Source: a virus
DNA length: 53,727 bases
Reading direction: 5' to 3' (one strand)
IMG/VR virus record: IMGVR_UViG_3300030060_003273
Location: 1-53,727 of that record
The position numbers were made by a program, and so were the translations under genes. Each line of letters opens with the position of its first letter. Position 1 is the stretch's first letter. Below the pieces are notes generated by a model. That model made no database searches, was not told the origin of the DNA, and worked only from the letters and a program-made list of their open reading frames with translations. This document shows, in pieces, positions 19,601 through 52,266 of the stretch.

Positions 19601-22600
19601 CCCAAGTATCTTTGGTGTTTAGTGCACCTTGCCCGGGGCCTCCTAATGTAACAGTTACAACAGGCGCTCCCGGCATAATCTCTTTTACAATATGAGAATC
19701 TGGTGAGCCAGATGCCTCTAAATCAATAGAGGTGCCTGCAATGTCACTATTTACTCCATGGCAAACCATAGTAACATTAGAGTTATTATCACTTCCAAAA
19801 GACAATAATCTACCTTTAGACATTAAATAATGAATATTGAACTTGTCATCTACTTTTAATTTACTTAACTGAGAGTGTTTAGTTTTATCAGATGGTTGAA
19901 CAAATATTTTATAACCACCACTATTACTTACTGAATCAATAATATCAAACCCACCATGTGTTCCTCCACGCCCACCTGTAGAAGGGGGTGGTGGCCTCCA
20001 AGGTGGTTGGTTGTAAATTTCCTCTTTTGCTAAAACTTCTTTTAAAATACCACTGCTAAATGTTATTAAAGTGTGAGTAACAGCAGATATAGTCCCTAAT
20101 TCTGTTCCTCTACTATTGAATGCTTTACCACCAACTGCGAAGTGAGATACAGCGCTTTCTCCATATACAGGTATTTCTGTGTCGCCTAGCGCTACACTTC
20201 TACAACGGAAAGAATCTACATATACACCTGTAGAGTAATCAAGGTCTGGTTTTTCTCCTATTTTTATACCATCAAATCCTAATGTTCTCTCAGAATCACT
20301 AGAAGATTGCCCTATTGTCAATTGATTAAATACAGAATTGTGGGTAGTATTGTTTACATTTGCAGTTGTAACACCTGTTGGGTTAAGTTGACCTATGTCT
20401 CCAGAATGTGATGGGAAGTAATTAGCAGGCGTTTGGCTAGTATCTACTGAATCTTGCCCATTATTTTCATAATCTACTCCTCCTGTATCATCACCATTAA
20501 AATCTCCAGAGTCTAAACTAAATTCAGAAGTAGACTGAAATTCTATTATACCACCGGGTGCGTGTAGCCTAGTAATTTTATCTGAAGAATTTAAATCACT
20601 GTGCACTATATCTATAATTTGACTTCCTGAAGACAAAACCGTACTAACATCAGGTAATGTTTTTTCAACTAATAATACACCACCATTTAATTTTCTTTTA
20701 ACAATATTACCAGTTACGGCTAGTGTCTTAAATGCAGAGTTAAAGTCTGCTGATGCAAAAGAGCCACCGGGTAAAGAAAAGGTCAACCGATTATCTGAGT
20801 GGCTAATAGTAGCAATTACCGCTGAACCTACATCAAATACAGCGGGCTCATCATTAATTACTAATTCAGTTGCAGGTATAGTAGAACCATCTTTACCAAA
20901 TGGTTTGACATTGGTGCAAGTAACATATACATTAGTACTTATATCTGCGCTAATTTTATCACTAGCAGCGTATTTTACAGTCTCACCTGTCATGTCGATA
21001 GCGTTGTAATGTACTTCTATGAAAGGAGCATACCCTTCGTCTGTTAAACTAGGAACTTCTAATAACGCTATTCTTGACTCTGAAACAGGAGTTAAGTGTT
21101 TAATATAAGTTTTAGAATTTATATCATTAGATATATTTGTTAAGTTATGACCATTTAAAGATTTTAATATAAATGGTAAAGGGTCAAATTGGATAGAGGT
21201 GCTATTATCTTTAATACCTACTCCACCTATTGCTAATAGACTTCTAGAACTAGTTTGCAAACCAGCCATACCGTTTTCAATAGCCATAAATGCATCAGAA
21301 CTAGAAACCACAGATGTCACACTTTGTGAAGGCTTTGTATCATAAAGAGATATTTGGGAGTTCATTGCTACTTGGTCTCTTACAGTAGAGTAATGGTCTG
21401 GGAATTGTACTTCAAATACATCAGATATACCATCTACTTTTTGAGTTATAGATTCATTTACAGGGTTAGGTAATATACCCATGTAAGGATTGCTTTTTAC
21501 ATGGTTTAGGTAGTGTCTACCTGTATGACCAATTAGTAACTTTTTATCAACTACTGGTGTCAATGAATCTGATATACCTGTAACTACAGCATTATATTGA
21601 TTATTGTTATTTATAGTTTCACTTAATCTACCTATGGTTTCTCTAACTGCCATATCTAAAGATGTAACTATACCGTGGTTTTCATATATACTTTCATCAA
21701 TTATAACCTGACCTGCTCTGTAAGCAAACTGTGTAGCCGTCCCTGATGGTTGATGGGGCTCACCCATACCGTTGTCAATTAAACAATCTCCCATAATTAA
21801 AACTGCTTCAGATGTAGATGTACGGGTATGAATTAAACCTCTTCTTCCTGTAGAAGTACTAGCCACATAATCAAGGTGTATACTCTCAATGATGATAGTG
21901 CCCGCACTACTATCTATACTTTTAATTCTAACTCTTTCAGGTGGTAAATTATTGGGTTTACCTGTTGTGCGGTCATACCCTAAAGGGTTGATAAGTAAAT
22001 TATAAGGGACATGGGGTATACTAACAGTAGAAGTAGCCCCGTCTGTATATCTAGCCGCTTTATAAGAACCATTAGAATGGGGTGATGCAGTTAAGTCTAA
22101 ACTTGTAGTACTAGTAGATGTATCTCCTAATATAGTTTTTATTAAATCTGCTGCGGCTGTTGCACCTATGTTAATAGTTGAAGCGGAATTACTTGCACTT
22201 ACAGTAGGTATAGTTATAATAGTTTCAACAGGTGATACAGGCTCTTGAAATCTCCAAAGACCTAGAGTAGAATCACTCTTAACAGGTGCATGAGGCTCTG
22301 ATGCTATATCAGATGCCCCTTTAGACCAATGTATAGATTCAATAATACCTCTGAACTCACCACCTCTACCTCCTAAAAATATACGACCATCATTTAAAAC
22401 CAATTTGTGTATCTCTGTAAAATCATGGGCTACTGCTATTTCTCCATTTACATATATAACTAAATTTTTACCGTTAAAGGTAACTACTACCTGTAATAGT
22501 TCTCTATGACCCAGTGTAAATGCTGATACATTATTCTTATTAGTGTTGTAAGCATCAAATGAATTTACAGCATCTAAAGAAGTATGAGGATATATTAAAC

Positions 22601-23000: not shown

Positions 23001-23006
23001 ATTTTT

Positions 23007-23012
23007 CTCCTC
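23007..23012 (-). promoter_or_regulatory. Ribosome-binding site fixing the start of the giant gene
   Basis: GAGGAG on the minus strand, seven bases before the ATG at 23000. It overlaps the TGA of the upstream gene (23011-23013). It favours the 6106-residue product over the 31-residue longer TTG-initiated reading. Confidence 0.75.
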
Positions 23013-24882
23013 ATGGTGATATTGATTGATGTACTGCTGATAATAGCATGTTAAAAGTATATTCTGTGTCCCCTGCTTGGTAGTTAATATCAAGTTTAGA
23101 CGCTATAATTCTTATCCCACCTTTATTGCCCATAGAACCTTCATTTATTGCGATTGCTATATCCCCCAATATATTACCAACTACTGTGTGTAAACCCTGT
23201 AATATATCACCCACTGTTCCCATAGAATCAAAAAGTTGGTCTATTACGTTATCAGAGGCTGTATCTTCTTCTACTTCTGCATTTTTAAATTTTAAAATTT
23301 CCATAACTTCAGAGGCAGGTCTTGTATTACCAACAGAAGTTTTTTGGTCTTCTGGTATAGAGCCATATGTTAAAAAGAAATTTCTTACTTCAGGACTAAC
23401 AGTGTTAGATGTAATGAGAGATTGATATGGTATCTGTATACCCGCTATTTCAGTAGGGCTGTTAATTGGAGAATTAGCAAATAAACCAAGTAAATTTTGT
23501 GCTTTATCACCTGCTGATAGCACAACATTACTCTTACCTTGTGATATACCCCCACTAAATTTAGTAGCATTTATAGGTGAATTACTTGTTGTATCTGCAG
23601 AATAAATCCTACCTACACCATAATCTGAAGGTTTAGATGTAACCCCACCTGTACCTGCTTCTCCATAAAGTTCTAAAGGTGTTAAATTATCATAATGGGA
23701 TGTTTTAATACCACCTTCTTTGTCAAACACATCACCAACTTCATCTCTTTGAACATCAACCCCCTTTATATTAGAACCTGTCCCTGTAACAGAGGCAGTA
23801 AAAGCATGTGCCACAGTTTTACCACCTGTTGATATAACATCAAAATCTGATACTTCTAAATTACTATTAATTGCTGCCTCAATTGCTTTGGCTAAACCTG
23901 CACATGGAGAACTGTTTACAGGAGAATCGCTAGTTGGGTTTGAAAATATACCTTTAATTGGTATCTTGATAGTGGGTATAACATTACCACTTTGTTGAGT
24001 GAGTTTGGTACCTGATACTAAACTAGCATTTACCGAACTCCCCAGTGTAGAATAAGCAGAATTAGCAGTGCCATCAAATATGAATACTATAGGAGTTCCT
24101 TTTCTCACAGCAGAGGGTTTACCATTATGAGCCCAGTGAAAAGGTACGAGTGCAAATCCCATACCATCTAAATAATCTTCAACACTTAATCTGTATATTT
24201 TCTCACCAATTTCCAAACCCCTAGTGGCAGGCGATGATAATATTAAACTACCCTCACCCGTAGGTAAACTAGTTGAATGGTTCATAGTATTAGAGCCAGT
24301 TCTTACAAAACCACTTGATACTAACTTTATGTTAGAATTATATACACTATCTCCTGATAATTGATTATTTGCAGATGCAAATAAATTATGTGTTGACCGT
24401 CCTGTTTTAGAATAAGTAGACATACCAGTCCATAATTGTGAGTTGGCTTTGGTTTTTCTAATATGGGCTTGTATTATACTAGTTTTACTTATTGATGCAC
24501 CTGAGTCTTGAGTAAAAAGTTTAGAAGTAGTGGTTGCATAGAACCTATGGTCCATTGCCCCCATCTGTCTAGATATACCACTACTTGCATTTCTAGCGAA
24601 TGTTGGATAAAGAGGGAAAGTGCTTATTCTACAAGTATCAGGTGTACCTTGTGAAATAGAAGCCCCTTCTGCTTCATCGGCTAGAACACCTCTAATGTTA
24701 ATAACAGTGCTAGGTATATTGAGGTCCAATCCAATCTTTTTAGCATCACTTACTGGTATAGAAAAAACAGATATATTTCTTTCAGTTGTGACTGATAAAT
24801 CTGTGACATCTAAATAAATAGGATGTAACTCAGGTGGAAATACACTATTATCTCTACGAATTAATTTTACTCTTATAGCCAT
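23011..24882 (-). CDS. Tail-tip/baseplate-type protein, short paralogue
   Basis: A 623-residue protein. I use the ATG at 24882, which has GGTGTGAT just before it and leaves four bases after the upstream stop. A longer reading from 24897 would overlap the upstream gene. It is clearly related to the next gene upstream (24887-28192). Near the N-terminus, KKIGLDLNIPSTVINIRGVL matches the partner's NVGIDLNMPRIQFAVTGVI. Near the C-terminus, SAGDKAQNLLGL matches SAGDKAQDLMGL, GIQIPYQS matches GIQIPYVT, and NFFLTYGS matches NFYITYGS. Both end in a beta segment with a Y.F/YEF..(L)..AV pattern. The Gly/Ser/Thr-rich middle lacks the LamG-like domain of the partner. Position after the tape-measure slot suggests a distal tail or tip protein. 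Confidence 0.78.
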   Translation of the reverse strand: MAIRVKLIRRDNSVFPPELHPIYLDVTDLSVTTERNISVFSIPVSDAKKIGLDLNIPSTVINIRGVLADEAEGASISQGTPDTCRISTFPLYPTFARNASSGISRQMGAMDHRFYATTTSKLFTQDSGASISKTSIIQAHIRKTKANSQLWTGMSTYSKTGRSTHNLFASANNQLSGDSVYNSNIKLVSSGFVRTGSNTMNHSTSLPTGEGSLILSSPATRGLEIGEKIYRLSVEDYLDGMGFALVPFHWAHNGKPSAVRKGTPIVFIFDGTANSAYSTLGSSVNASLVSGTKLTQQSGNVIPTIKIPIKGIFSNPTSDSPVNSSPCAGLAKAIEAAINSNLEVSDFDVISTGGKTVAHAFTASVTGTGSNIKGVDVQRDEVGDVFDKEGGIKTSHYDNLTPLELYGEAGTGGVTSKPSDYGVGRIYSADTTSNSPINATKFSGGISQGKSNVVLSAGDKAQNLLGLFANSPINSPTEIAGIQIPYQSLITSNTVSPEVRNFFLTYGSIPEDQKTSVGNTRPASEVMEILKFKNAEVEEDTASDNVIDQLFDSMGTVGDILQGLHTVVGNILGDIAIAINEGSMGNKGGIRIIASKLDINYQAGDTEYTFNMLLSAVHQSISP

Positions 24883-38190: not shown

Positions 38191-39321
38191 TCACTTAAGG
38201 TCACGGATTGAACCTTGACCTCCAAAGAAAGTTGTCCATACTTCACCCATTGTTCTGTAAAGCCCTTCTTGACCTAGTCTGTTAATTGCAAACGGGTCAC
38301 CAGTTTCGATACCACTTTCAAAATATTGTGTAGGAATTCCAGTACTAAAGTACAAATAATCTGTATCAAGCATATAAATTCTGCTTAGACTATCTTTTGC
38401 TACATCTTTGGAAGGAATGATTGGTACTCCATTGTATGTTGCTACAACGAATCCCGCTTCAACACCGGGTACACCCTTTACACCATTGTATGTTGGTGTA
38501 ACTCTTCTTTCTTCCATGAATCTTTGTTGTGTTTGTAACAATTGTTGAATTCTCATCAATGTATCATATCCAGTTAACATAACTTTTGGATTTCCACCAC
38601 GTACCCATAGTTTTTGGAATAAGTCATCTAAGTGGTCTAAACTTAAAGTTCTGTTAGTACTACCTGTGTCAGCGTTACCTTCAGCAAATGACCATGAGTT
38701 TGCACTTCTGTCAATACTGTAGATATCTTCGTCTGCTGCATCATAGTGTGTTCCTGATGTCATTGCTGTACTATCAGCCACAGTAACTCTGTCAAGTGAT
38801 TCTATATCATTACCAGCAACTGTGCTTACATCTTGTAATAGCATTTGGTTGATGTGTTCTGCATGGTGTTTACCCATTTCTTCTTTTAGAACACTTCTTA
38901 TGTCACCTAGACCATCATCCTTATCAGAAAGGAAAATTGCTACTTCTGACATGTCAAAAGCGTGAGCAATTGTTTTTGGTTTTGCTGCAACATGTTGGAA
39001 TGTTGGTTTTGTTGTGTCTGGTAGTGTACCATTTTCTGCAATACCGCCACCAACTGATGTTGATGGTTTTGCAGTTACAACACGCCATCCGCTTCTGTCC
39101 CAAGGTTTCTTAGGTAGAATACTAAATGCGTTAAATTCTTGGTTTAGTTGTGACCAAACTTTTCGTCCATATATTGCTTGGTATGTACCTGCTGTTGTAC
39201 TTAGCATAGGTGCATCTGCTTTCAGTAGTTCTGAACCACTGTAAGAGTAACCCATTGCGTTTCCAGCACCGTAGTAGTACCTTTCCAAGTCTTGTACTGT
39301 TCTTACATAATTTCTTGCCAT
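38191..39321 (-). CDS. Major capsid protein (HK97 fold expected)
   Basis: A 376-residue protein with an ATG at 39321 and GGAGATG nine bases upstream. It follows the protease-scaffold gene, the standard position. The N-terminal arm (ARNYVRTVQDLERYYYG) leads to a charged, aromatic E-loop-like stretch (FSILPKKPWDRSGWRVVTAK). Then come LKEEMGKHHAEHINQMLLQD, typical of the spine helix region, and LDHLDDLFQKLWVRGGNPKV...LTGYDTLMRIQQLLQ, typical of the A-domain. VATYNGVPIIPSKDV and RIYMLDTDYLYF are classic capsid strands. There is no long N-terminal extension that could act as a scaffold, in line with a separate scaffold in the preceding gene. It forms the icosahedral shell. Confidence 0.85.
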   Translation of the reverse strand: MARNYVRTVQDLERYYYGAGNAMGYSYSGSELLKADAPMLSTTAGTYQAIYGRKVWSQLNQEFNAFSILPKKPWDRSGWRVVTAKPSTSVGGGIAENGTLPDTTKPTFQHVAAKPKTIAHAFDMSEVAIFLSDKDDGLGDIRSVLKEEMGKHHAEHINQMLLQDVSTVAGNDIESLDRVTVADSTAMTSGTHYDAADEDIYSIDRSANSWSFAEGNADTGSTNRTLSLDHLDDLFQKLWVRGGNPKVMLTGYDTLMRIQQLLQTQQRFMEERRVTPTYNGVKGVPGVEAGFVVATYNGVPIIPSKDVAKDSLSRIYMLDTDYLYFSTGIPTQYFESGIETGDPFAINRLGQEGLYRTMGEVWTTFFGGQGSIRDLK

Positions 39322-39358: not shown

Positions 39359-40279
39359 TTAATTCCATACACTCCCTGCTAATCTGTGAACATCATTCCA
39401 GTCCATGTTAGCCATTTCTTCAGAAGTTGGTATTTCTACTTTTGAAATATTACCTGCTGATTTCATGATTGGTTCTGCACTTTGTGTTGATAAAGCATCA
39501 ATTCTGCTTCCTAATGATTGAATAGCCTTTTGGATTTCTCCTAATGGACCACGTGCATCAAAGGAAGATGCTGCTCTTGCATCTCTTTCTGCAGTTTGTT
39601 CTTTTGCTAATCTGTCACTAAATACTGAATTTAAACTTGATTTAAATTGTTCTTCTTGTGCTGCTGCTTTGAAAACTTCGTAAGCCGCTTCTATTTCAGT
39701 TGCACTTACATTGTCAGGTGAAAGGAAAGATTTTGAAACCTTTCCACCACTGCTTAATCCAGCACGAGAAAGAGCATTTGTTGAAGGAGAGCCATTTTCT
39801 GTTGCTCTACCTTTAACTTGGCCTGCAAAGTAATCTGCTCCATCAACAGAGGCTGGGTTATCAAATCCGCCAAGTTGTGCTTTTTCTAAATCATCAAAGT
39901 GGTTTCTTGCACCAGCAATGTCAACACCTTGTCCTTTAAGGGTGCTTTCCATCCAGTTTAAGTAATCACTTGTTATTACATCACTGTATTCAGATTTTTC
40001 TGTTTTTTCTTTGTCTTTAGCATCTTCATCTTCTTCTTTTTCCATATGAGAGCCATATCCTTTTTCTTTATTTTCATTCATTTTATCATTGTCTCCGTTT
40101 TCTTTAGAGTCATCATCGTTTGAGTCTTCACCATCTTTTTTATCTTTTGGCTTTAGGAATTCAGGCATTTCTTTAGCAACATCGTCTGCTGCAGGTCCAT
40201 TTTCCATAGTATCCAATTTCTTATTCAATCGGTCAAGAACGCTAGATAGTTCCCCTAATGCGTCTGTTTCATTGTTCAT
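39359..40279 (-). CDS. Nested scaffold protein from internal start in the protease gene (predicted)
   Basis: An ATG at codon 179 of the protease gene (40279), in frame with it, is preceded by AAAGGAGGAT with eight bases between AGGAGG and the ATG. This is the best ribosome-binding site in the window, although it lies inside a gene. Initiation here would give 306 residues without the protease domain: helix, acidic segment and C-terminal helices, the usual make-up of an HK97-type scaffold. The arrangement equals lambda C/Nu3. The start lies right after the protease domain ends. Independent production is inferred from the site, not proven. Confidence 0.72.
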   Translation of the reverse strand: MNNETDALGELSSVLDRLNKKLDTMENGPAADDVAKEMPEFLKPKDKKDGEDSNDDDSKENGDNDKMNENKEKGYGSHMEKEEDEDAKDKEKTEKSEYSDVITSDYLNWMESTLKGQGVDIAGARNHFDDLEKAQLGGFDNPASVDGADYFAGQVKGRATENGSPSTNALSRAGLSSGGKVSKSFLSPDNVSATEIEAAYEVFKAAAQEEQFKSSLNSVFSDRLAKEQTAERDARAASSFDARGPLGEIQKAIQSLGSRIDALSTQSAEPIMKSAGNISKVEIPTSEEMANMDWNDVHRLAGSVWN

Positions 40280-40813
40280 TGTTGTATCCTCCTTTAATAT
40301 TCGGAATGTTGCTTCGGGATTAATCCCTTTTTCACAAATAGTAACCTCGTGTAATTCTAGTTTTGAAATCTCGGTATAATTACCGTGCTCGGCATCATGC
40401 TTGTTAATGCGCTTAAATGCCTGTCCTCCAATACTAAAACCTCTAAGGGTACCTTTGCGAATTTGATTTGCGACTTCACGAGCCTTTTCGATGTCGTCAC
40501 GTAATTTGATAACTACAAACATACCTGAATCATCTACTCCAGATTTCCACACACGTCCTTCATTATCTGTATAATCTTTTATTACTTCACCTACTTGTAT
40601 ATTAGAATGTGCTAATTGTACATTTCTATAGTTAGATGCTTTCATAAAATCTCCAAATGCATTTTTTAATGCACCTGATGTAATTTTGTCTCCCTGCTTG
40701 TCTACCATTTCTACACTAGCATAACCTGCGATTACTAAGTCGTTTGAAGACTTAATAATATGCAAACCACCATCTTCTATAGAAGGGCTGCGTAAAAGCG
40801 CTGCGGAAGCCAT
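39359..40813 (-). CDS. Prohead protease fused to scaffold-like C-terminal region
   Basis: A 484-residue protein; ATG at 40813 with GGTGG upstream. Residues about 15-170 match the HK97-type (S78) prohead serine protease: VIAGYASVEMVDKQGDKI, His69 in VQLAHSNIQVGEVI, and Ser127 in RGFSIGGQA. KLELHEVTICEKGINPEA follows and probably holds the third catalytic residue. Residues 179-484 form a scaffold-like region: a leucine-rich helix, a highly acidic Asp/Glu/Lys segment (about 205-275) and helices to the C-terminus (FKAAAQEEQFKSSLNSVF, IQKAIQSLGSRIDALS). The enzyme cleaves scaffold and capsid precursors during head maturation. The C-terminal motif IPTSEEMANMDWNDVHRLA is shared with the gene at 46976-47326. 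Confidence 0.88.
   Translation of the reverse strand: MASAALLRSPSIEDGGLHIIKSSNDLVIAGYASVEMVDKQGDKITSGALKNAFGDFMKASNYRNVQLAHSNIQVGEVIKDYTDNEGRVWKSGVDDSGMFVVIKLRDDIEKAREVANQIRKGTLRGFSIGGQAFKRINKHDAEHGNYTEISKLELHEVTICEKGINPEATFRILKEDTTMNNETDALGELSSVLDRLNKKLDTMENGPAADDVAKEMPEFLKPKDKKDGEDSNDDDSKENGDNDKMNENKEKGYGSHMEKEEDEDAKDKEKTEKSEYSDVITSDYLNWMESTLKGQGVDIAGARNHFDDLEKAQLGGFDNPASVDGADYFAGQVKGRATENGSPSTNALSRAGLSSGGKVSKSFLSPDNVSATEIEAAYEVFKAAAQEEQFKSSLNSVFSDRLAKEQTAERDARAASSFDARGPLGEIQKAIQSLGSRIDALSTQSAEPIMKSAGNISKVEIPTSEEMANMDWNDVHRLAGSVWN
40288..40293 (-). promoter_or_regulatory. Strong internal ribosome-binding site for the nested scaffold
   Basis: AGGAGG on the minus strand within AAAGGAGGAT (40286-40295), eight bases before the in-frame ATG at 40279. 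Genuine gene starts around it mostly carry weaker GGTGG or GGAGATG sites. Confidence 0.72.
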
Positions 40814-40841: not shown

Positions 40842-43800
40842 TTAAGACGTTTGTATCACAGCAGAATCTTTGTCCACATGTAAATGGGCCATTTCTTCTT
40901 CAGTATCTAATTCTAAATCAATAGACTGCGGCTTATCACCCGTCTTAGGTTGGTATTCTTCTAACTCCTCGTTTGGTCTTGGGCGACCATCATAGTCAGG
41001 AAGTGTGCTTTGGTCCCTAGTTCTAGTAGGACCTGTAGGGGATTGAACTGGGGTAGCCATATCAATTCCTAGACCTTTAGCACCTGTAAATGCATGACCT
41101 ACACTACCTATTGATTTTTCAATAGCCTTAAGTGCTCTAACTGTGGTATCCCAATAGTTTGAATCTTTTACCTTTTTAGGTTTAATAAGAGGTTTACCAT
41201 CACCTTTGCTTTGATGCACCTCTGCTTTTTCTTCATCTTCTCTAATATCTAAATTACCTTTTAACATAATGCCCGCAATAGGTGACCAAAACGGTCTTTG
41301 TGATTCAGCCATTCTAATTAACAAACTACTTTTTGATTTAGGAGAATGTACAAACCAATTTTCACCACTATTAGTTGCCTTGTAAATTACTTCACCTTGT
41401 TGAAACTCTACCATAATATGTCTATCAGACCTTTTAATTTGATGGGGCCATTGTTCAGGAATTGATTTTGTAAAAGCAGCCAGTGTTTCTCTACTAGCCA
41501 AAGGCTCTCCCTCTGCTTCGCTTTCAATATTACCAGCGTGTATAGTATATATATCAGATTCATTTTGTGTAAATGAAGTAACACTATCCATTGTAACTTT
41601 TACAGAATCTCCTACATTAAATTCTTTATCACTGTGAAATACAGTTCCTACATCCATGTAAGTTTCTCCATCTACTTCTTTAGCCCTATCTCCAATTTCA
41701 TCTCCATCTATAACTGGACCCATGCCTAATCTGTAAGTGTATTCTCCATCTCCTTTTTTATCTAATACTATTAAGTTAATGTCTTTACCGGGTTTGAGAA
41801 GTACCCATTTAGGATGTCGCTTTTCTCCTAGCATGTAAGTTGACTTGGCATCACGAAGTAGAATACGCTCTCCTTCTTTTTCTAAATCTTTGATTGTGTG
41901 TGACAAACCAGCATCATCTGTAAATCGTGTATTATAAGCCCCCGGTAACAATACATTTTCATGACTTTCCATACCACCTCTTAATATTCTAAGACGGTCT
42001 TGTGAAGGCTCATCGTGTACATCTTTATCATCAAATTCAATTATATCGAATACATGACATTCTTTACCTACCATAACTACATCAATAAAGAAATCTTTGT
42101 CAGTGGTTTTCTTAATAGATTTTACTAAATCATCATTTAATTCAGCAGACTTACCACTTACTCCTTCCCAAGCCTTAACTGTATCTCCATTTCTACGAAT
42201 AAAATATCTTTCACCTTCAGGCATAACACTTGCAACCCAATCCCCACTAAACCCTTTTAATTGTTCTATATCATCTAACTCAAAAATACGATGCATTGGT
42301 TGTAAAGGTGGGGGCTGCTCTGCATTAAACTTCAATAATAAATCTGAATTGGTCAAAGATGCAAGTGAATGTTTACCTTTGACCATGTGTTCCCAACCTC
42401 TGTCTTTTGGACTGGTGCCGTGCAAACTATGTAAACGCTGAGATGCTGGTACTTCGTCCATTGGTATAGCCCCCTGTCTGTTATGGGGGCCGAATTGACT
42501 TATGAACTGATTGATGTAGTTATCATTAAGCCCCATACTTTTGAATATTTGTCTATAGAACTCTTTAGGTAAACTAAGTAATTTTGATTCATAATCTCCT
42601 TCCTCAAAGTGCACATGCCCGTCTTTACCCATAACAGGTCTAAGATTAGGTCTACGTAAATGACCATGGTCTAATCTTAATGCTGGGGAATTCAAAATAC
42701 TACTTAGAGCATGACCATGAGGTGTACCTGCATCTCCTATCGGCACAGGTCCTTCACTAGTAATGTCATCACGCTTAAGTTCTCTATTATCAGAGTCACC
42801 TATTAAAATAGAATCTAATTTTTGATGAGTATTCCATCTATCCGCATCTGTGCTTGCTGCAGCAGTGTATTCATCACTTCCTCCGCTTCTCCTCATAGGT
42901 TCGTTACTCATGTGGTTTTCTGAATGTCTATGTGGGGCCATAACATGATGTACACCTACCCCTCTTAGAGCATCATCTTGACCTTCCATTATACGCCTTA
43001 AGGCTTCAACCATCCTACTAGGTTTAGATAATCTTGCTCTATCATCAGGGTCTCCTCTATATTTTGATTTACCTCTACTAACACCTTTTGAACTATGAGC
43101 ATCATAAAAATCATGCGCTGTGTCAATTGCATCAGGTATTACTTCTGAAGATTGGTTAGGAAAAATAGATGATGGAGGGTGCTTACCTATCATATCAGCG
43201 ATTTTCATAACAGAGAATTCTTTATCATAATCACCACCACTTAATCTTTCAATCTTATCAAATACATCATGTGCTAACCTTTGGTGAAAAGGGTCTTCAC
43301 TGTCAAGTCCTAGTAAATTGTAAATGTTTTCATAATTCTCTCCAGCAGTACCCATGCTTAGTTTACTTTCACTACCATGAACTAAGTTAGCCAAATTACC
43401 ATGATGGGCTTGTCCAACAATTGGCCTTGTGTCAGGTCTTTTTGCTAAACCATGTGATGTTTCGTTATGTATAATATTAGAATTACTATTACCATAAGTG
43501 GTAGCGGCTGATGCTATAGCCTGTATATTAGCAACTGTTGTGTTAAAATCACCGGGTACAATAGGGCTTTTACCTTGCTTTATAGCCTCGTGTATTAGTT
43601 TACCAGTTAATCTCGCAGTGGCTTGTAAATCAGATATTCGCTTCATATCAGTAGAATCATGCCCTTGAGTTTTCAAATCCATAAAGTCAGAGGCAGGTAC
43701 CCCTTCATCTTCCCTGCTAAGTTGTTTTTCCGCCTCTATAATTTTTTGATACATATCTCTGTATTTAGGAGAATCTTCACCATAGCGCTCACCAATACGT

Positions 43801-46529
43801 GCTAATGTACCTACTAAATTGTCAAGTACATCTTCCGCTTCAGTTGCAGTACCCTCACCTTCTCTTTGACCACTTAGGAATTTTCCAGATGCCTCTTTCT
43901 TTCTCTTACCCATCAGTTCGTATAAAGAATTAAGTGTGGGTACAGGTAATTTTTCTTCTGGGATAGTTTCTAAATCATTATGACCTGTCCATAAATGGTC
44001 TTGTGGGTCTAATGGGTCTGAAAGCACACCCATCTGCGCAGCAATAGATGCACTATGATTTGCAGGTACTGTTAATGGATTACCTGCTTCAAAAGGAGTT
44101 GACTGCCTAGTAAATGGGTTTCTATAATGGTCATAACTTCTTTTAGTACCAGTACCTGTGCCTCTAGCAGTTTCACCTTCATATTGACTTTCTTTTAAAG
44201 CCTTCATAGATGGGGTCCTTAATCTCTTTTCAGCCGGAGTTCTTGCCATGTAATGCTTTCTATAATCCTTATAAGTTGAATTTACAGTAGGTCCATCTAG
44301 ACTTGCTCCTCCTGTAGCAATATCTCCTTTAGCCCCTGCTACCCCTGTCTCAATCCTAGTGTTATTTTGACTCAACGCTTGGGTCGGAAAAGTATCTAAC
44401 AACTTTGCTTTCTCTCCCACTTCTGAAAATTTTACTTCACCTGTTAAAGAGTCTTTAATACGCTTTCTTTTAGGGTAGCGTGCTCTTTCTAAAGATAGAT
44501 TACTGAAAGGCCCAAACAAACCACCTGTCGTTATGTCAGGGTTATAAACATCATCCATTCTCCCATATGGGTCATCTAGTGGTATATGGGGCCTTATTGC
44601 ACCTGATACAAATTGAGGCATTGGCTCTGTCATCCCCGACACACGTTTTGTACCATACTGACTTAGAAACTGCTCATCCGTTATAGAAGAAAAATCTTTG
44701 CCAAGGTCATGGGTTTTCATACCATATAATGAATGCGAATAACTACCTTCTTTTTTATGAGCAGTCATATCATGTAATATATCCATTAATGCATCATGAT
44801 GTCTACCCATACCTCCTAGATGCCGATAAGGTTGTCTCCAATGAGTAGCCAAAGTTGTATTATCATCTGCATGTTCATGGCTGTCAGGGTCTACCCAACC
44901 TGCTCTATGATACGCTATTGAATTTCTTGCCTTTCTACCAGCATACATACTGGATGCTTTATCTTCAAGTGATTTTATAGTGTTATTGAAATATTCCATC
45001 AACTCTGGTTTATCTACATATTGCTCTAAGGCTTCGCCAAGTTCTTCAGGGCTTAATTTATTGGTTTCATCTACTTTATCAGGTGCATTTAAAGGATGTA
45101 ATACATTTTTTAATGAATTAGGGTCCCAGTCTAAACCGTAAAAAGGGTGCTCACCTTCTCTATAAAATACACCAGTTTCAGGGTCAATTCCCGCTAAAGC
45201 ACGAATGGTTGAAATTGATAAATGGTCGTCATCTTTTGGTTTTGCTACAAATTCTTTATCTTTAACGTGCCAATTAGGTAAAAATTTTAAATTACTATTT
45301 GTTAAATCATTGAACTGCTCTAGTAATTTATCATACATAGAGTCATCACTCCTTCTTAATAAACTATTTATCAACATAGGATTTAAACTACCAGTGCTTA
45401 ATGGTATTTTTTGATGTTCTATATTTTCACCTGTAACATCGGGGTCTCTTCCCCACCAATCGTATAAGCCACCAAACCGTTGGTAATTATTACGCTTCAA
45501 TCTACCCATTCTTAAATTACCTAAACTGGTTGTAACAACCCTTCCTTCTTTTGTGTTTGAGTCTGTTCCATGCTCATATAAATGATTATAAATTTTAGTG
45601 CGGTCTTCGGGAGATTCTAACTCTAAGCCTAAATGGTAACAATTATGACCTAGCCCTGTCATATGACCGTTTTCATCTACTTCTTGAGATAGCCACCCAT
45701 CTATCAATTCTTGCATGTGCCTTGTTCTTAATTCCTTTTCTGTAGGCTCTTCGTCTGTTGGTACAGTTTGTAAATTATCCTTTTTCCAATTTTCGTAATG
45801 TTTATTGAACCTTTGAGCATTAGTATTGAAAGTTTTACCTAACATGTTATTATTAATTATCATATGTGGTTGATTAGTATCTTTGTCAACAGCATGTTGC
45901 TTTTCCCAAGCCATTTCTTTATCATGGTCATCCTCCGCTTTAGATTGACCTATTTTGTTACCATTCTCATTATAATTTTGATGATAATAAAAGTCAACAA
46001 GCCTTTCACACCAAGCAGGCATTAAACCAAACTCAGGGTGATGCTTTGTCGCAGATAATGGATGTAAATCTGTACTCAACGGATTATCAGATGGGTGGTT
46101 ATAATCACCATGTTGAGGTTGTGCTAAACGGGGACTCATGCCAGTTCTACCAGCGGTTTGCTCTGATTCAGGGAGTATTGTACGATTGTAAAAGGTACTA
46201 CCCTGTCCACTTTGATGTGCAGGCTGTACTATACTAAAAGCACCACCACCTTTGGATGCACCGGGTGACCATTCATCTAATTTGGGCATATCAGCACCTC
46301 CAAAAGCAATCTGTTCTGTTTCATCTTCAACTTGTTTTAGAACAGGTTTTAACATCTTCTGTAGAGTACTGTCAATACTCTCATTAGGTATATCTATACC
46401 ATGCCTTGAGAGATTAAGTAATGAGAAATAATATTCAGCGGCTGCATCAGCCTTTCCTATATTGTCTATTATAGACTTAAAAAATGTATTACGGTGGCGA
46501 TTATAGATATCTAAAGCAGATTCACGCAC
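40842..46529 (-). CDS. Large virion-cluster protein with degenerate ATP-dependent DNA ligase-like domain
   Basis: A 1895-residue protein, apparently starting at GTG 46529 with GGTGGT six bases upstream. Residues 1-1400 are polar, His/Asp/Lys-rich and without a recognised fold. Residues about 1415-1680 follow an ATP-dependent DNA ligase. At 1431-1441, WVASVMPEGER has the spacing of motif I (W.A..KxDGxR), but Met1436 and Glu1438 replace the nucleophile Lys and Asp. Then come FFIDVVMVGKECHVFDIIEF (motif III region, DGE lost), EGERILLRDAKSTYMLG (motif IV, 1552-1568), KWVLLKP (motif V, 1574-1580) and an OB-fold-like part with YMDVGTVFHSDKEF. Without the lysine it should not form an enzyme-AMP, so it is probably a nucleic-acid-binding or structural relic. 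Its gene lies between the portal and protease genes, suggesting a head-internal or injected protein. Confidence 0.82.
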   Translation of the reverse strand: MRESALDIYNRHRNTFFKSIIDNIGKADAAAEYYFSLLNLSRHGIDIPNESIDSTLQKMLKPVLKQVEDETEQIAFGGADMPKLDEWSPGASKGGGAFSIVQPAHQSGQGSTFYNRTILPESEQTAGRTGMSPRLAQPQHGDYNHPSDNPLSTDLHPLSATKHHPEFGLMPAWCERLVDFYYHQNYNENGNKIGQSKAEDDHDKEMAWEKQHAVDKDTNQPHMIINNNMLGKTFNTNAQRFNKHYENWKKDNLQTVPTDEEPTEKELRTRHMQELIDGWLSQEVDENGHMTGLGHNCYHLGLELESPEDRTKIYNHLYEHGTDSNTKEGRVVTTSLGNLRMGRLKRNNYQRFGGLYDWWGRDPDVTGENIEHQKIPLSTGSLNPMLINSLLRRSDDSMYDKLLEQFNDLTNSNLKFLPNWHVKDKEFVAKPKDDDHLSISTIRALAGIDPETGVFYREGEHPFYGLDWDPNSLKNVLHPLNAPDKVDETNKLSPEELGEALEQYVDKPELMEYFNNTIKSLEDKASSMYAGRKARNSIAYHRAGWVDPDSHEHADDNTTLATHWRQPYRHLGGMGRHHDALMDILHDMTAHKKEGSYSHSLYGMKTHDLGKDFSSITDEQFLSQYGTKRVSGMTEPMPQFVSGAIRPHIPLDDPYGRMDDVYNPDITTGGLFGPFSNLSLERARYPKRKRIKDSLTGEVKFSEVGEKAKLLDTFPTQALSQNNTRIETGVAGAKGDIATGGASLDGPTVNSTYKDYRKHYMARTPAEKRLRTPSMKALKESQYEGETARGTGTGTKRSYDHYRNPFTRQSTPFEAGNPLTVPANHSASIAAQMGVLSDPLDPQDHLWTGHNDLETIPEEKLPVPTLNSLYELMGKRKKEASGKFLSGQREGEGTATEAEDVLDNLVGTLARIGERYGEDSPKYRDMYQKIIEAEKQLSREDEGVPASDFMDLKTQGHDSTDMKRISDLQATARLTGKLIHEAIKQGKSPIVPGDFNTTVANIQAIASAATTYGNSNSNIIHNETSHGLAKRPDTRPIVGQAHHGNLANLVHGSESKLSMGTAGENYENIYNLLGLDSEDPFHQRLAHDVFDKIERLSGGDYDKEFSVMKIADMIGKHPPSSIFPNQSSEVIPDAIDTAHDFYDAHSSKGVSRGKSKYRGDPDDRARLSKPSRMVEALRRIMEGQDDALRGVGVHHVMAPHRHSENHMSNEPMRRSGGSDEYTAAASTDADRWNTHQKLDSILIGDSDNRELKRDDITSEGPVPIGDAGTPHGHALSSILNSPALRLDHGHLRRPNLRPVMGKDGHVHFEEGDYESKLLSLPKEFYRQIFKSMGLNDNYINQFISQFGPHNRQGAIPMDEVPASQRLHSLHGTSPKDRGWEHMVKGKHSLASLTNSDLLLKFNAEQPPPLQPMHRIFELDDIEQLKGFSGDWVASVMPEGERYFIRRNGDTVKAWEGVSGKSAELNDDLVKSIKKTTDKDFFIDVVMVGKECHVFDIIEFDDKDVHDEPSQDRLRILRGGMESHENVLLPGAYNTRFTDDAGLSHTIKDLEKEGERILLRDAKSTYMLGEKRHPKWVLLKPGKDINLIVLDKKGDGEYTYRLGMGPVIDGDEIGDRAKEVDGETYMDVGTVFHSDKEFNVGDSVKVTMDSVTSFTQNESDIYTIHAGNIESEAEGEPLASRETLAAFTKSIPEQWPHQIKRSDRHIMVEFQQGEVIYKATNSGENWFVHSPKSKSSLLIRMAESQRPFWSPIAGIMLKGNLDIREDEEKAEVHQSKGDGKPLIKPKKVKDSNYWDTTVRALKAIEKSIGSVGHAFTGAKGLGIDMATPVQSPTGPTRTRDQSTLPDYDGRPRPNEELEEYQPKTGDKPQSIDLELDTEEEMAHLHVDKDSAVIQTS

Positions 46530-47334: not shown

Positions 47335-47715
47335 CTATTGTAGTGTCCTGTTACTTTGCGGTCTCATAATACTACCTATACGGTTAGTACGAATAGTTCC
47401 GGGTAACACATCATTAGAGTGTTTGTGCACTTTTTCTACTTGACTAAACTTACTTACAGGGAATCCACCTGCAAATATATCATTAACACCTTTTGTACTT
47501 TCTTGTTTATTAATCATACTTTCAATATCAGTTGATAAATAGTCTGCATATTTCATAATTTCATTGATGTGGTTTCTAGCAGAACTGGAATCACTTTGTT
47601 CTATTGCTTTGTAAAATTCATCCACATGAACTTTCATTTTCCGAGCCATCGGGTCTAACTTTAACAAATCGGCCATGCTCCACCCAACACCTCTAATATA
47701 TTGAACCTTTCTCAT
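47335..47715 (-). CDS. Small helical protein after the portal gene
   Basis: A 126-residue protein; its ATG at 47715 overlaps the portal TGA in an ATGA junction, with GGGGAG just before. Residues 12-80 are predicted helical (SMADLLKLDPMARKMKVHVD, IEQSDSSSARNHINEIMKYA). The C-terminal 45 residues are basic and polar (GTIRTNRIGSIMRPQSNRT). I recognise no family. Translational coupling to the portal suggests a portal-associated or head-assembly role. Confidence 0.62.
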   Translation of the reverse strand: MRKVQYIRGVGWSMADLLKLDPMARKMKVHVDEFYKAIEQSDSSSARNHINEIMKYADYLSTDIESMINKQESTKGVNDIFAGGFPVSKFSQVEKVHKHSNDVLPGTIRTNRIGSIMRPQSNRTLQ

Positions 47716-49460
47716 GCTCCCCTGTATCTACCTGCGTTCTGAACCGCATTAGATGTCTGTTCCATTAACCCCGGTGTAGGGCCTCTTTGCTGCACAGAAG
47801 ACACTGGAGAGCCTGAGCCTGCTGTTGTTCTATTTTGGGGACTTGCTGGACCACGGTTTCTCATTCCCACACCTTGCCCACCGGGGTTTTGTAGACCCGC
47901 TTGAGCCTGTGCTCCCATAGCACCTGCTAATTGTGGTGGGATATTACGACCCGGTAAAGCACCGGGTTGACCCATGCCACCGCCCATCATCATACCGCCC
48001 ATACCTCCACCCATTCCGGGTTGTTGCATTTGCTGACCCGGTGGTGGTTGTTGGTAAACGAATCTAATATCTCTAGTACCTTCTTCTAACAATTCTGCAT
48101 GATATCCTAACATAGCCATACGCTGAGCAATATTAACTTCCATTTCATCTCTACGTAGTCTTGTAATTTCATCTTCTTCTTCTGATGGGTATAATGTAAT
48201 TTTCCAGTCAGATACATTCATTTCTTTCATTAATCTAGGAAATAAATTTTCAGTATATACTTTATGACCAAATTCTACTGCACGATTTGTAACTAATACT
48301 TGTAAACCTTCATTGTTCAGACCGCCAGATTTACCAGTGTCCATCATAAATACATTTGACACTCCATAAAATGATGCTATGCGTTGCCTCATTTCATCTC
48401 TTGTAGCAGTATATTGCATTTCTTCCATAGTGTCCATAAACTTAACCCAGTTAACTCCACCACGACCTGTAGTAGATTCTATACCAATTTTAGGAATATA
48501 ATGTGGGTCTCTTTCAAGTTTCTCATCAACACCTTTCCAGAAAGATTTCATAGATTCTAAGTTATCTGTTGTAATTGAAATTAAACCTCTAGGCATTCTA
48601 CGTTTAGAATACATAGTATACATGTAATTATCCATAGCAGTCAGAGTCATTGCTTGTCTCCATAATGTAGAGACAGGAGAGCGACCATACAATTTACTAG
48701 GATTATATTTAGACACATGCAATACTTCTCCATCTAAATAATATTGAGTTTTTCCAGAGCCTGCTGTATTTACATAATGTACATCTTCTAGTTTGTGACC
48801 ACAGATGTTACATTCTTTTTCTTGTTCATGATACCCTCTAACTTCATCTCGGTGTATAGGGCAAACTCTAAATCTTCCCCCACGAACTCCTCTTTTATCA
48901 GCGACTATTCTCATAAAGATAGGGTCACCACGCATAACCTCTTTTACTCTATAAAATACAGGTTCATTACTTTCTTCATCAATATAATATTCTTTGATTA
49001 AAATCATAAAAGCATCATCTGTAATATTTAAATCATATTCTATTTCTCTTAAAACATCTAAAAATGATTGGTCCATTGAGTTTCTTTCTTCTAAAAACCA
49101 TCTTGGATAAATTAACTCACCAGCATCAGGGGTCTTTAAATCAGAACTTGGACACTCTTTACAAACTTCTACATCATGTTGATACTCTGCGTCACAGTCT
49201 ACACATTTTTTATGAAAAGCCTTTTCCCAATAATAACCACGTCTAAATATTTCTTGTTGTAAAGTAGTAAGTACAGTTCTAAGAATTAAACACTCATTAG
49301 ATACAGCGTACAATGCAGGTAAAGTAACACCCTGTACTAACACTGGTTCTTGTATACCAGTGGTCCAAAGTGGCATTGTAGGAGCAGGTGTTGGTCTACG
49401 TTTGAATGGTGATGCTAATGCTGATAAAAACTTACCAACTCTTGATTTTTCTTCTGCCAT
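47712..49460 (-). CDS. Portal protein with two zinc-binding clusters
   Basis: A 582-residue protein; ATG at 49460 with GGAGGG upstream. A GTG at 49478 would precede the site and is less likely. Typical portal features are LPALYAVSNECLILRTVLTT, YYLDGEVLHVSKYNPSKLYG, RSPVSTLWRQAMTLTAMDNY and RQRIASFYGVSNVFM...GGLNNEGLQV. The wing region carries four-residue clusters Cys86/Cys89/Cys100/Cys103 and Cys200/His203/Cys217/Cys220, which look like zinc sites. The last 115 residues are Gly/Gln/Pro/Met-rich and probably disordered. The portal forms the ring at the capsid vertex used for DNA packaging and exit. It normally follows the terminase; here a LAGLIDADG-type gene lies between. Confidence 0.85.
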   Translation of the reverse strand: MAEEKSRVGKFLSALASPFKRRPTPAPTMPLWTTGIQEPVLVQGVTLPALYAVSNECLILRTVLTTLQQEIFRRGYYWEKAFHKKCVDCDAEYQHDVEVCKECPSSDLKTPDAGELIYPRWFLEERNSMDQSFLDVLREIEYDLNITDDAFMILIKEYYIDEESNEPVFYRVKEVMRGDPIFMRIVADKRGVRGGRFRVCPIHRDEVRGYHEQEKECNICGHKLEDVHYVNTAGSGKTQYYLDGEVLHVSKYNPSKLYGRSPVSTLWRQAMTLTAMDNYMYTMYSKRRMPRGLISITTDNLESMKSFWKGVDEKLERDPHYIPKIGIESTTGRGGVNWVKFMDTMEEMQYTATRDEMRQRIASFYGVSNVFMMDTGKSGGLNNEGLQVLVTNRAVEFGHKVYTENLFPRLMKEMNVSDWKITLYPSEEEDEITRLRRDEMEVNIAQRMAMLGYHAELLEEGTRDIRFVYQQPPPGQQMQQPGMGGGMGGMMMGGGMGQPGALPGRNIPPQLAGAMGAQAQAGLQNPGGQGVGMRNRGPASPQNRTTAGSGSPVSSVQQRGPTPGLMEQTSNAVQNAGRYRGA

Positions 49461-50764
49461 TATAATCCCTCCATCCACTTACCGATAATGTCCTTGTCTA
49501 TGCCCCAACTATTCAAAGATTGTTCTGCTTTAGTAGTTCCATCCCAATTAAGATATTGTACAACTTTCTTTAATTCATCTTTACGGGAGTTATCCTTTTC
49601 ATCTAAGTATTTTAAAACAGCCTTTGCTTGCTTTTCCTTCATACATAGATGAGGTAATAACCCTGTTAGTAATTTTTTAAGGTCATCTTTTGAATAAAAT
49701 GATATACGGTGTTGGCTTCTTTGCCCGTTTTTGTATATCTTCTGGTCTAGTTGTAATATACCACAACCTAACTCTTTGTGTAAATGCTCACAATGTAACC
49801 TACCTCGTTCACCCGTTGCGATAAAAGAAGCACGAGGTTCACCTCTATCAGTAATGTATATACTACCATCAGCATCTAAGAAGCCAGCACTATATCCCCA
49901 TATATCTGCACCCTTTAACACTAAGCCATCAGATTTTATTAAAACATAAAATTGTTCATTTGTATTAGTATTACGTGCACCTTTGATAATATTCATTTCT
50001 TCTCCATACATTTTTAGTAATTGTGACAATTGAGTAGGGGTTGCACCACTGCGACCTTGTAACAATGTGTTATTTTCAATAATTGCTCTAGTGGTCATAG
50101 GCCCCCTTTCTGATAGTTCTTTCTTTACAACATCTAACCAAGTTATTTGTTTAGGTGATAAACTATCAATTTGATGTAATGTTTTTTTCCATATTTTACG
50201 AGCGTCTTTCTTGGTACCCATAGCCTTGACCCAAGCATTTTGTTCTTCTTCACCCCACACATCTTCAAATTCATCTAACATTTTCAAAGACTTTTCAGCA
50301 TTATCCCACATATCACATGCTCTTAACAGAGATACTTGTCTACTTTTATGAAATAACCTTAATGATTTTAAATCTCTATCATCTAATCCAAGATTTCGGA
50401 TTGTATCTTGTTTATCAATAGCCCAAGATATATTATTTAAAGTGGCTTTTACCTCTTGTTCTTTGATAATTCTAATCGTTTTAACAAGTTCATCAATTTC
50501 ACTCTTTAATAATTTATTATGCCGTCTTTGCTTCTTTAATTGCTTTACTAAAGTAGATGCATTTTTACCAGTATAGGCTTTCAACCAACCATCACCTGTT
50601 GGTGGAAAAGGTAATTTAGTTTTATTAACCTTTTCCACTGGTAACTGCAAAGCACTTTTAATTATACTATTTGCATTATTATAATCACCATTAATATGAG
50701 GATGCTTAATTAACATATCCTCAAAACTGTTTTCATCACTACTTACAGACAACGAACTCCACAT
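49460..50764 (-). CDS. LAGLIDADG-type homing endonuclease-like protein
   Basis: A 434-residue protein; ATG at 50764 with GAGAGGG upstream (an ATG at 50779 lacks such a site). Residues 290-302 read GYSAGFLDADGSI, a clear LAGLIDADG motif with the conserved Asp. The following strands fit the fold (RASFIATGERGRLHCEHLHK, GCGILQLDQKIYKNGQR, HRISFYSKDDLKKLLTGLLP). Only one motif is visible, so it may work as a dimer. Residues 70-105 form a basic coiled coil, and 205-275 look like a winged helix (LSERGPMTTRAIIENNTLLQ). It sits as a free-standing gene between terminase and portal, overlapping the portal start by one base and the terminase end slightly. Its action is probably on DNA, with spread into other genomes or regulation possible; activity not shown. 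Confidence 0.78.
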   Translation of the reverse strand: MWSSLSVSSDENSFEDMLIKHPHINGDYNNANSIIKSALQLPVEKVNKTKLPFPPTGDGWLKAYTGKNASTLVKQLKKQRRHNKLLKSEIDELVKTIRIIKEQEVKATLNNISWAIDKQDTIRNLGLDDRDLKSLRLFHKSRQVSLLRACDMWDNAEKSLKMLDEFEDVWGEEEQNAWVKAMGTKKDARKIWKKTLHQIDSLSPKQITWLDVVKKELSERGPMTTRAIIENNTLLQGRSGATPTQLSQLLKMYGEEMNIIKGARNTNTNEQFYVLIKSDGLVLKGADIWGYSAGFLDADGSIYITDRGEPRASFIATGERGRLHCEHLHKELGCGILQLDQKIYKNGQRSQHRISFYSKDDLKKLLTGLLPHLCMKEKQAKAVLKYLDEKDNSRKDELKKVVQYLNWDGTTKAEQSLNSWGIDKDIIGKWMEGL

Positions 50765-50775
50765 ATTTTTCCCTC

Positions 50776-52266
50776 TCATATACTAAACCATTTTGGCTTT
50801 TGACTAGATTTCTGTCCACCTGTTAACCAACTGTCAAACCCGGGGAATTCTTCATCGTCAAGTAGCACAATATTACCACGGAACTCTTTTGTTGCCCAAT
50901 TAGCAAGTGCCAGAGCCATGGCTAGGTCATCGTGTACACCCACACTCTCCAGTCGACCGTTCTTATTCATTCCGAATCTATTCAATTGGGTTTCCAATGT
51001 TCTTGTAAACTCTTTACTTTTCTCATTTCCCCATGGAGTTTTGATTTTTCCTTGCTCAAATGCCATTAAAAGTGACATAAACATACTTTCTTTACGTTGT
51101 CTAGTAGTCATAACAGTCTTAACAGGTATATCATCCCTCATATCTTTGAGTTCTGCTTCAAACATACGCTGAAAGTTATTACCTTCTAACTCAATTAATT
51201 CAGGAGTGAACCTACTATTAAGTAATATAATGCTTCTTTTCTGTGCATTACCTGATAAACCCTTTTGATTGATTGCGTGTATCAATTGTTTCTCGTTACC
51301 ATCAGGTGGAGTACGTAAAACTACCATAGCAGTGTAGTCAGCATTAGCATCAGAGGCAATAGCAGGGTCCCAACCTATGAAATGTTGACCAAAAATACCT
51401 GCTACATCCCCATTTTCATCGTATTCTGACTCTGCTTTTTCCAATAATACTAGGTTTTCATCCCTTGCACTCTCTAAAATATCCGCTGGGAACATACTAG
51501 ATAGGTCATGAATAGGCTCACATAGGTACTCACGAGCGAATTTTATGGCTGGCATAGACGCTTCACGCACTTTTAGAGCGTCTAAAGGCCATCTTCCGGG
51601 CCATAATGGTTCCCCATTTGGCAAAATAGCAGGGTATGTTTCCACTGTAAAGGTGTCTTTTTCCTCTAATTCAGCGTATAAATCGTTGTAACTGAAGGGT
51701 GTACCCACCATCATAAGGCGAGAACTGTGGTGCAGAACAGGTAAAAGTACTGCATAGAACCAATCTGCGGCTCTTTGTAGTTCAGATGCTGATGTTCCCC
51801 ATAGAATATCGTCACAAACTACCACATCAGGGTGGAAACCACGAGTAGCACCACCCACTGACTTAGCCATAATACGACTACCATTGCTAAAATCGAAGTA
51901 AGATTTAGCCCAAGGACGACCTGCAGGCTTTAAATGCCTCAAAATAGGGGTATTTTCAATTAAATTTCTTATCAAACGCATGTGTTCAAGGGTCTGTTCT
52001 AATGAATGTGAGAACACCATTATGTGTGTTTTTGGTGTAAAAGTCGCTAACCATAGTGCATATGACATAAAAAGAGTAGATTTACCGTGGTCACGAGATG
52101 CTTTAACACAATAAAAGCGGTTTTCGTTCAAACCTTTCTCCCATTGCCCATGGTGAGTAGAATAATCAAACCCTAATATATCTTCAAAGAAGTATTTGAA
52201 TGATTTTTTAGATTGTTCCCAGTCGATTTGTTTGACTAAATCTGCGATTGGGGTATTATCATTCAT
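50776..52266 (-). CDS. terL: Terminase large subunit
   Basis: A 496-residue protein, the usual length, with an ATG at 52266 behind GAGGTACC. The ATPase domain has a Walker A-type loop KASRDHGKST (residues 55-64), HIMVFSHSLEQT, and a Walker B-type VVVCDD (148-153), followed by GTSA and the SRLMMVGTPF coupling motif (182-191). The nuclease domain has Asp300 in GWDPAIASDANADYTAMVVL, Glu361 in IELEGNN and Asp446/447 in VGVHDDLAMALALA, the acidic metal-binding triad of the RNase H-like fold. The protein cuts concatemeric DNA and pumps it through the portal. It overlaps the upstream gene by an ATGA junction. Confidence 0.95.
   Translation of the reverse strand: MNDNTPIADLVKQIDWEQSKKSFKYFFEDILGFDYSTHHGQWEKGLNENRFYCVKASRDHGKSTLFMSYALWLATFTPKTHIMVFSHSLEQTLEHMRLIRNLIENTPILRHLKPAGRPWAKSYFDFSNGSRIMAKSVGGATRGFHPDVVVCDDILWGTSASELQRAADWFYAVLLPVLHHSSRLMMVGTPFSYNDLYAELEEKDTFTVETYPAILPNGEPLWPGRWPLDALKVREASMPAIKFAREYLCEPIHDLSSMFPADILESARDENLVLLEKAESEYDENGDVAGIFGQHFIGWDPAIASDANADYTAMVVLRTPPDGNEKQLIHAINQKGLSGNAQKRSIILLNSRFTPELIELEGNNFQRMFEAELKDMRDDIPVKTVMTTRQRKESMFMSLLMAFEQGKIKTPWGNEKSKEFTRTLETQLNRFGMNKNGRLESVGVHDDLAMALALANWATKEFRGNIVLLDDEEFPGFDSWLTGGQKSSQKPKWFSI

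Follow-up and report, generated by a model that had tools for sequence, protein, structure and literature searches.

A DNA ligase-like core predicted to be non-catalytic in a head-cluster protein of magrovirus-like viruses

What does a DNA ligase-like domain without its catalytic lysine do in a very large protein encoded among the head genes of a tailed virus? A sequence-only reading of this locus had proposed that a ligase fold is re-used there for structural DNA binding or DNA-end holding in the head. The proposal was followed up by profile searches, structure prediction, alignment of homologues and comparison of gene order in related virus records.

Genomic setting of the pseudo-ligase gene

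The window, i.e. the whole stretch of DNA that was analysed, is a partial virus record of 53.7 kb whose minus strand holds a tailed-virus morphogenesis module in the order TerL, HNH-like protein, portal, three small genes, the 1895-aa protein, protease and major capsid protein (MCP) (Table 1). The gene sits between portal and protease as had been claimed, with the three small genes separating it from the portal, and the order from portal through the small genes, pseudo-ligase gene and protease to MCP was the same in every sufficiently long locus. The 439-aa HNH-like gene precedes the portal in most homologous loci, and HVTV-1 gp111 (HNH) occupies the same place.

Table 1. Features of the morphogenesis module and of the 1895-aa protein, in window coordinates
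Feature	Coordinates	Strand	Basis or remark
Pseudo-ligase head-cluster protein, 1895 aa	40842..46529	-	ORF, GTG start; homologues with same gene order
N-terminal region, fast-evolving, residues 1-1387	42369..46529	-	~25% identity among homologues
Motif I position MPEGER, residues 1436-1441	42207..42224	-	no nucleophile lysine; 195/195 copies hydrophobic at 1436
Motif III position IDVV, residues 1482-1485	42075..42086	-	no catalytic Glu; column 1485 I/V/F/T/M/L
Motif IV position ERILLRD, residues 1554-1560	41850..41870	-	Glu variable, RD kept
Motif V position KWVLLK, residues 1574-1579	41793..41810	-	KW invariant, second Lys variable
Nucleotidyltransferase-like (NTase) domain, residues ~1405-1588	41766..42317	-	PF01068; AlphaFold; fold search
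OB-like domain, residues ~1589-1680	41490..41765	-	lies within the part aligned to ligase folds (21-310 of the model)
Small extra beta/alpha domain after OB, residues ~1681-1760	41250..41489	-	pLDDT 77-88; barely covered by fold search
Conserved C-terminal tail peptide GLGID.ATP.ESP.GPT...PD.D, residues 1819-1847	40989..41075	-	near-invariant in 57 diverse rows; modelled disordered
S78 prohead protease	39359..40813	-	PF04586, phrog_23555
Major capsid protein (SU10-type/HK97)	38191..39321	-	PF17236, phrog_24667; Druskaviridae MCP identity 33-35%
Portal protein	47712..49478	-	PF04860, phrog_18178
HNH-like protein, 439 aa, between TerL and portal	49460..50779	-	phrog_5046
TerL	50776..52266	-	minus-strand morphogenesis module

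The Druskaviridae MCPs related to that of the window include those of HVTV-1 (35% identity) and HCTV-5. In the homologous record G006, which is 100,986 bp long, genes were recognised for PolB, an RFC-like AAA ATPase, one ERCC4 and one PD-(D/E)XK nuclease, GroEL and a protein resembling HMG-CoA lyase; the set is of the type described for magroviruses, which are Poseidoniales-associated viruses (PMC10768690, PMC10160649). The traits of Magrovirales (a genome of ~90-110 kb, PolB, ERCC4, GroEL, HMG-CoA lyase and a Druskaviridae-related MCP) were found in G006, and in the window itself through its MCP. The source viruses are accordingly assigned as magrovirus-like from the gene content of G006 together with the MCP, the window being partial, and their hosts are probably abundant ocean archaea. 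No relatives of the ligase-like module were detected in the GTDB genomes scanned, so that host genomes provide no host link, and tblastn of the whole 1895-aa protein against INPHARED phages returned no match.

Elsewhere in the window, a 6137-aa ORF in the tail region (4680-23093, minus strand) resembles Laminin_G_3/concanavalin-like domains weakly, at an E value of 0.0013 that misses the cut-off, and G006 has a 5489-aa ORF in the corresponding region. In G011:C1:73771-74918 and G018:C1:29184-30328, unlike in the other records, two reading frames share the PolB match; an aoguangvirid genome map also labels a split PolB (NTD/CTD) (PMC10768690).

Ligase fold and catalytic positions

When the C-terminal fragment was searched, residues 1488-1577 matched PF01068 with 27.3 bits against a cut-off of 26.2. 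A profile of 51 diverse homologues matched the Thermococcus sibiricus ligase 4eq5 with an E value of 7e-6, the motif I lysine of 4eq5 being aligned to the Met1436 column. AlphaFold2 modelled residues ~1411-1680 with pLDDT mostly of 81-96 (69 around residues 1561-1570), and this second model matched DNA ligases in Foldseek with an E value of 1e-13; a first model, built with 20 homologues, gave an agreeing ligase fold. Fold alignment to DNA ligases reached a Z score of up to 19.5 over ~268 residues with an overall rmsd of 5-13 Å, and the NTase domain alone gave a Z score of 18.4 with 2.3 Å over 168 residues; the high overall rmsd probably reflects differing NTase/OB hinge positions in the model and the ligases. 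The best match in a viral structure library was an 827-aa protein, 26% identical. The capping enzyme 1ckm ranked 50th in Foldseek with the first model, and the top matches listed for the second model are all DNA ligases; mRNA-capping enzymes may be relatives, the closest listed folds being those of DNA ligases. Consequently, the ligase-like domain with an OB-like tail that had been read from sequence is borne out by the Pfam, profile, Foldseek and Z-score results, structure prediction and fold search having recovered a nucleotidyltransferase (DNA ligase) fold and no unrelated one, and residues ~1405-1680 are predicted to form a DNA ligase core (NTase + OB).

The low PF01068 scores across the family (about 12-33 bits) could be put down to chance similarity or to a pseudogene domain in decay. 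This reading is contradicted by the Z scores and by the selection data given below, the 192 related stretches that one pattern scan found in IMG/VR also speak against it, and its probability is considered negligible.

The core thus shares with ATP-dependent DNA ligases (archaeal, LIG1, LIG3) an NTase and OB fold of PF01068 type but differs from them in its fusion to a head-cluster protein of 1,390 residues and in the loss of the nucleophile lysine and of the motif III glutamate. The cap-binding domain of snurportin-1 has a guanylyltransferase-like fold without catalysis and binds the m3G cap. It is an earlier example of a dead nucleotidyltransferase fold retained for binding; unlike the viral core, it is capping-enzyme-like, has no ligase OB domain and acts in eukaryotic nuclear import, and its profile match was not significant (E 0.17).

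MPEGER was found at residues 1436-1441, exactly as read, where the KxDGxR of motif I is expected (residues 1431-1445 are WVASVMPEGERYFIR); this motif and its nucleophile lysine are defined in PMC4609770. Lysine occupies position 1436 in none of 195 aligned copies, and the residue varies but is always hydrophobic (M80, W52, Y31, F23, L6, I3); the copies include overlapping extracts of the same contig, with 140 distinct motif combinations among 204 rows. Gly1439 is kept in 194/195 and Arg1441 in 185/195 of the copies. KxDGxR and, in the motif III region, DGE were each absent from all 180 cores. The claimed loss of DGE from motif III holds for the glutamate, replaced by I, V, F, T, M or L at column 1485 in all sequences, while the aspartate is still there in most. 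Similarly, the claim that motifs IV and V persist stands for the basic residue 1559 (R in 200/203) and for the invariant KW with the first motif V lysine (1574), and not for Glu1554 (D60/E53/K42/G14 and others) or the second motif V lysine, Lys1579 (R66/K42/S36/Q24 and others), which vary in the family. The RxDK pattern of motif VI is missing from most cores; an R-x-D-K string occurs in 5/180, counted at any position after the start of the OB domain.

Homologues with a lysine at 1436 and an intact motif III were sought and none was found. In two divergent clades, AFYDGER and SKWYDGKR, motif I is canonical except that an aromatic residue replaces the lysine, and the SKWYDGKR clade also retains motif III as LDGI or IDGI. 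The register of the alignment is therefore fixed by a motif I that is otherwise intact. Motif I is recognisable by its G and R, motif III by its D, motif V by its KW and motif IIIa as FD-like, and since catalytic side chains have been replaced within intact motifs, the alignment suggests that the ancestor was an active ligase.

The protein could nonetheless still be an enzyme if adenylyl transfer proceeded through another residue, such as the lysine one residue upstream in the KWYDGKR clade, where a KxxDGxR pattern is present in 26/180 cores. This lysine is missing outside that clade, which has itself lost the motif III glutamate (LDGI, IDGI) and in which R usually stands for the second lysine of motif V. 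A shifted nucleophile is thus unlikely in that clade, and retained enzymatic activity in general is regarded as very improbable.

Constraint on the core and its candidate partners

The conserved module begins abruptly near residue 1388. Among 15 pairs of close relatives, dN/dS (Nei-Gojobori) was 0.00-0.083 in the core versus 0.09-0.35 for the stretch of the gene that precedes it, the latter range omitting one pair with saturated N-terminal dS. The ligase-like domain is under very strong purifying selection and is not decaying, and decay was therefore rejected. An antisense ORF on the plus strand (42097-42441) overlaps the conserved coding region and is taken as chance. In the N-terminal parts of 29 members, no consistent Pfam or PHROG match was found, only scattered weak ones; a HExxH string occurs there in 30/180 sequences and is not a family feature.

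Thus, with a predicted ligase fold, loss of catalytic residues in all relatives, a place in the head cluster and strong selection, the core appears to be re-used non-catalytically. On sequence and model grounds it is judged to be a pseudoenzyme with an enzyme fold, which has lost catalytic residues and, in all likelihood, catalysis while purifying selection is kept. Of the original proposal, non-catalytic re-use in the head is upheld by fold, residue loss, gene order and selection, and DNA or DNA-end holding stands as one candidate for the role.

One tentative possibility is that, within the head, the dead core binds duplex DNA or the ends of DNA, as a genome anchor, an end protector or a packaging clamp. 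It is plausible because the NTase and OB domains, which encircle DNA in ligases, are both retained along with the basic R-H-P-K-W loop, nearly invariant beside the former active site, and it agrees with the portal-to-protease location of the gene. Both domains are on the other hand net acidic (family median charges of -6 for NTase and -4 for OB), although the core of the active haloviral ligase of HGTV-1 is acidic too, and charge consequently does not decide the matter.

Protein docking is equally plausible and is held just as tentatively: the core would serve as a module for the portal, terminase, protease or capsid in head assembly. The very low dN/dS, the fixed neighbour genes and the near-invariant tail peptide (GLGID..TP.ESP.GPT...PD.D) are all consistent with such a role, and the tail peptide itself looks like a candidate docking element from its conservation.

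A further explanation comes from HVTV-1 (Druskaviridae), in which gp113-gp116 occupy the same portal-to-protease interval in a virus with a related MCP, but with zeta-toxin/ART-like and HExxH proteins instead of a ligase-like domain. Two large proteins of this interval, gp113 (6146-9292) and gp115 (10539-14480; both in L041), carry between them a HExxH motif and a zeta-toxin annotation with an ART-like C-terminus, and are possible packaged enzymes; an ADP-ribosyltransferase is also reported in PMC8651126. Since the same interval holds large enzyme-bearing proteins there, the pseudo-ligase protein could sit inside the head, leave it together with the DNA and act on the host cell, in which case the dead core would bind a ligand of host or viral origin. 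However, PF01068 had no match anywhere in HVTV-1, no sequence similarity was found between the pseudo-ligase protein and gp112-gp116, gp119, gp121 or vir519 proteins, and the core evolves more slowly than the rest of the protein, unlike the usual effector under conflict. The data are matched about equally by DNA binding, by protein docking and by an ejected internal head protein, the last of which is nevertheless rated unlikely as a specific explanation.

Considered by partner, duplex DNA or a DNA end and a protein of the virus (the portal, the terminase or the protease, for example) are each conceivable with limited confidence, and a nucleotide or other ligand seems distinctly less likely than either.

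In an ancestor of the sampled magroviruses, a ligase core of NTase and OB domains may have become joined to the C-terminal end of a large head-cluster protein, after which it would have lost the residues for adenylyl transfer and become a rigid non-catalytic module. The protein, presumably co-produced with portal, protease and capsid, would act in assembling the head or packaging the genome; the dead core would provide a docking surface, while the fast-evolving ~1,390-residue N-terminal part would do variable work. The core would perform no DNA ligation, and it would be the host ligase that closes nicks in the viral genome. This proposal of a captured core that lost catalysis and was kept as a non-catalytic head-cluster module is considered probable as a whole, with good support for the non-catalytic role in the head.

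The ligase annotated in magroviruses

No second PF01068 gene was found in 54 virus records carrying the pseudo-ligase gene, whose contigs may be incomplete (17 are at least 82 kb long, most of these with PolB); two of the 54 gave no PF01068 match at all despite carrying the gene. NAD-dependent ligase (PF01653) was absent from the 14 records searched and RNA ligase (PF09414) from the 18 searched, in 17 of which PolB is present, hence the replication module is there. In the same PF01068 search the active-type haloviral ligase of HGTV-1 scored 93 bits versus the low family scores given above, and a true ligase should therefore not have escaped.

An ATP-dependent DNA ligase is annotated for magroviruses in PMC7318539 and PMC10160649 and in the ICTV profiles of Aoguangviridae and Apasviridae, both of which count it in the replisome; according to PMC10160649, almost all magrovirus vOTUs encode DNA ligase. 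In a group A magrovirus, one paper places this 'ATP-dependent DNA ligase' beside the prohead protease. Since this is the arrangement found here, we infer that the annotation means the present gene. The published ligase resembles the pseudo-ligase in adjoining the prohead protease, the pseudo-ligase being the sole ligase-like gene found in the 54 related records, but it is described as a part of the replisome, whereas the pseudo-ligase belongs to the head cluster and has lost its catalytic residues. The published ligase is probably, in large part at least, this dead domain. In the titles and abstracts of the open-access literature searched, no catalytically dead ligase was described in these viruses. 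That the dead ligase is a fixed head part gripping the packaged genome or its end non-covalently, and that the magrovirus replisome has no ligase of its own, is as a combined reading rather doubtful.

Pseudoenzymes of nucleotidyltransferase fold are a known kind, and what is unusual is the place of this one in a head-gene cluster; if true, the finding would represent an unusual re-use of a replication-enzyme fold among the head genes of a tailed virus, in a module that is sharply bounded, strongly conserved and directly expressible and testable. Magroviruses reportedly rank with the most abundant viruses in sunlit ocean waters and are described with a near-complete replisome including an ATP-dependent DNA ligase. 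Taken together, if the published ligase is the dead domain, both that annotation and the independence from host ligation drawn from it would need correction.
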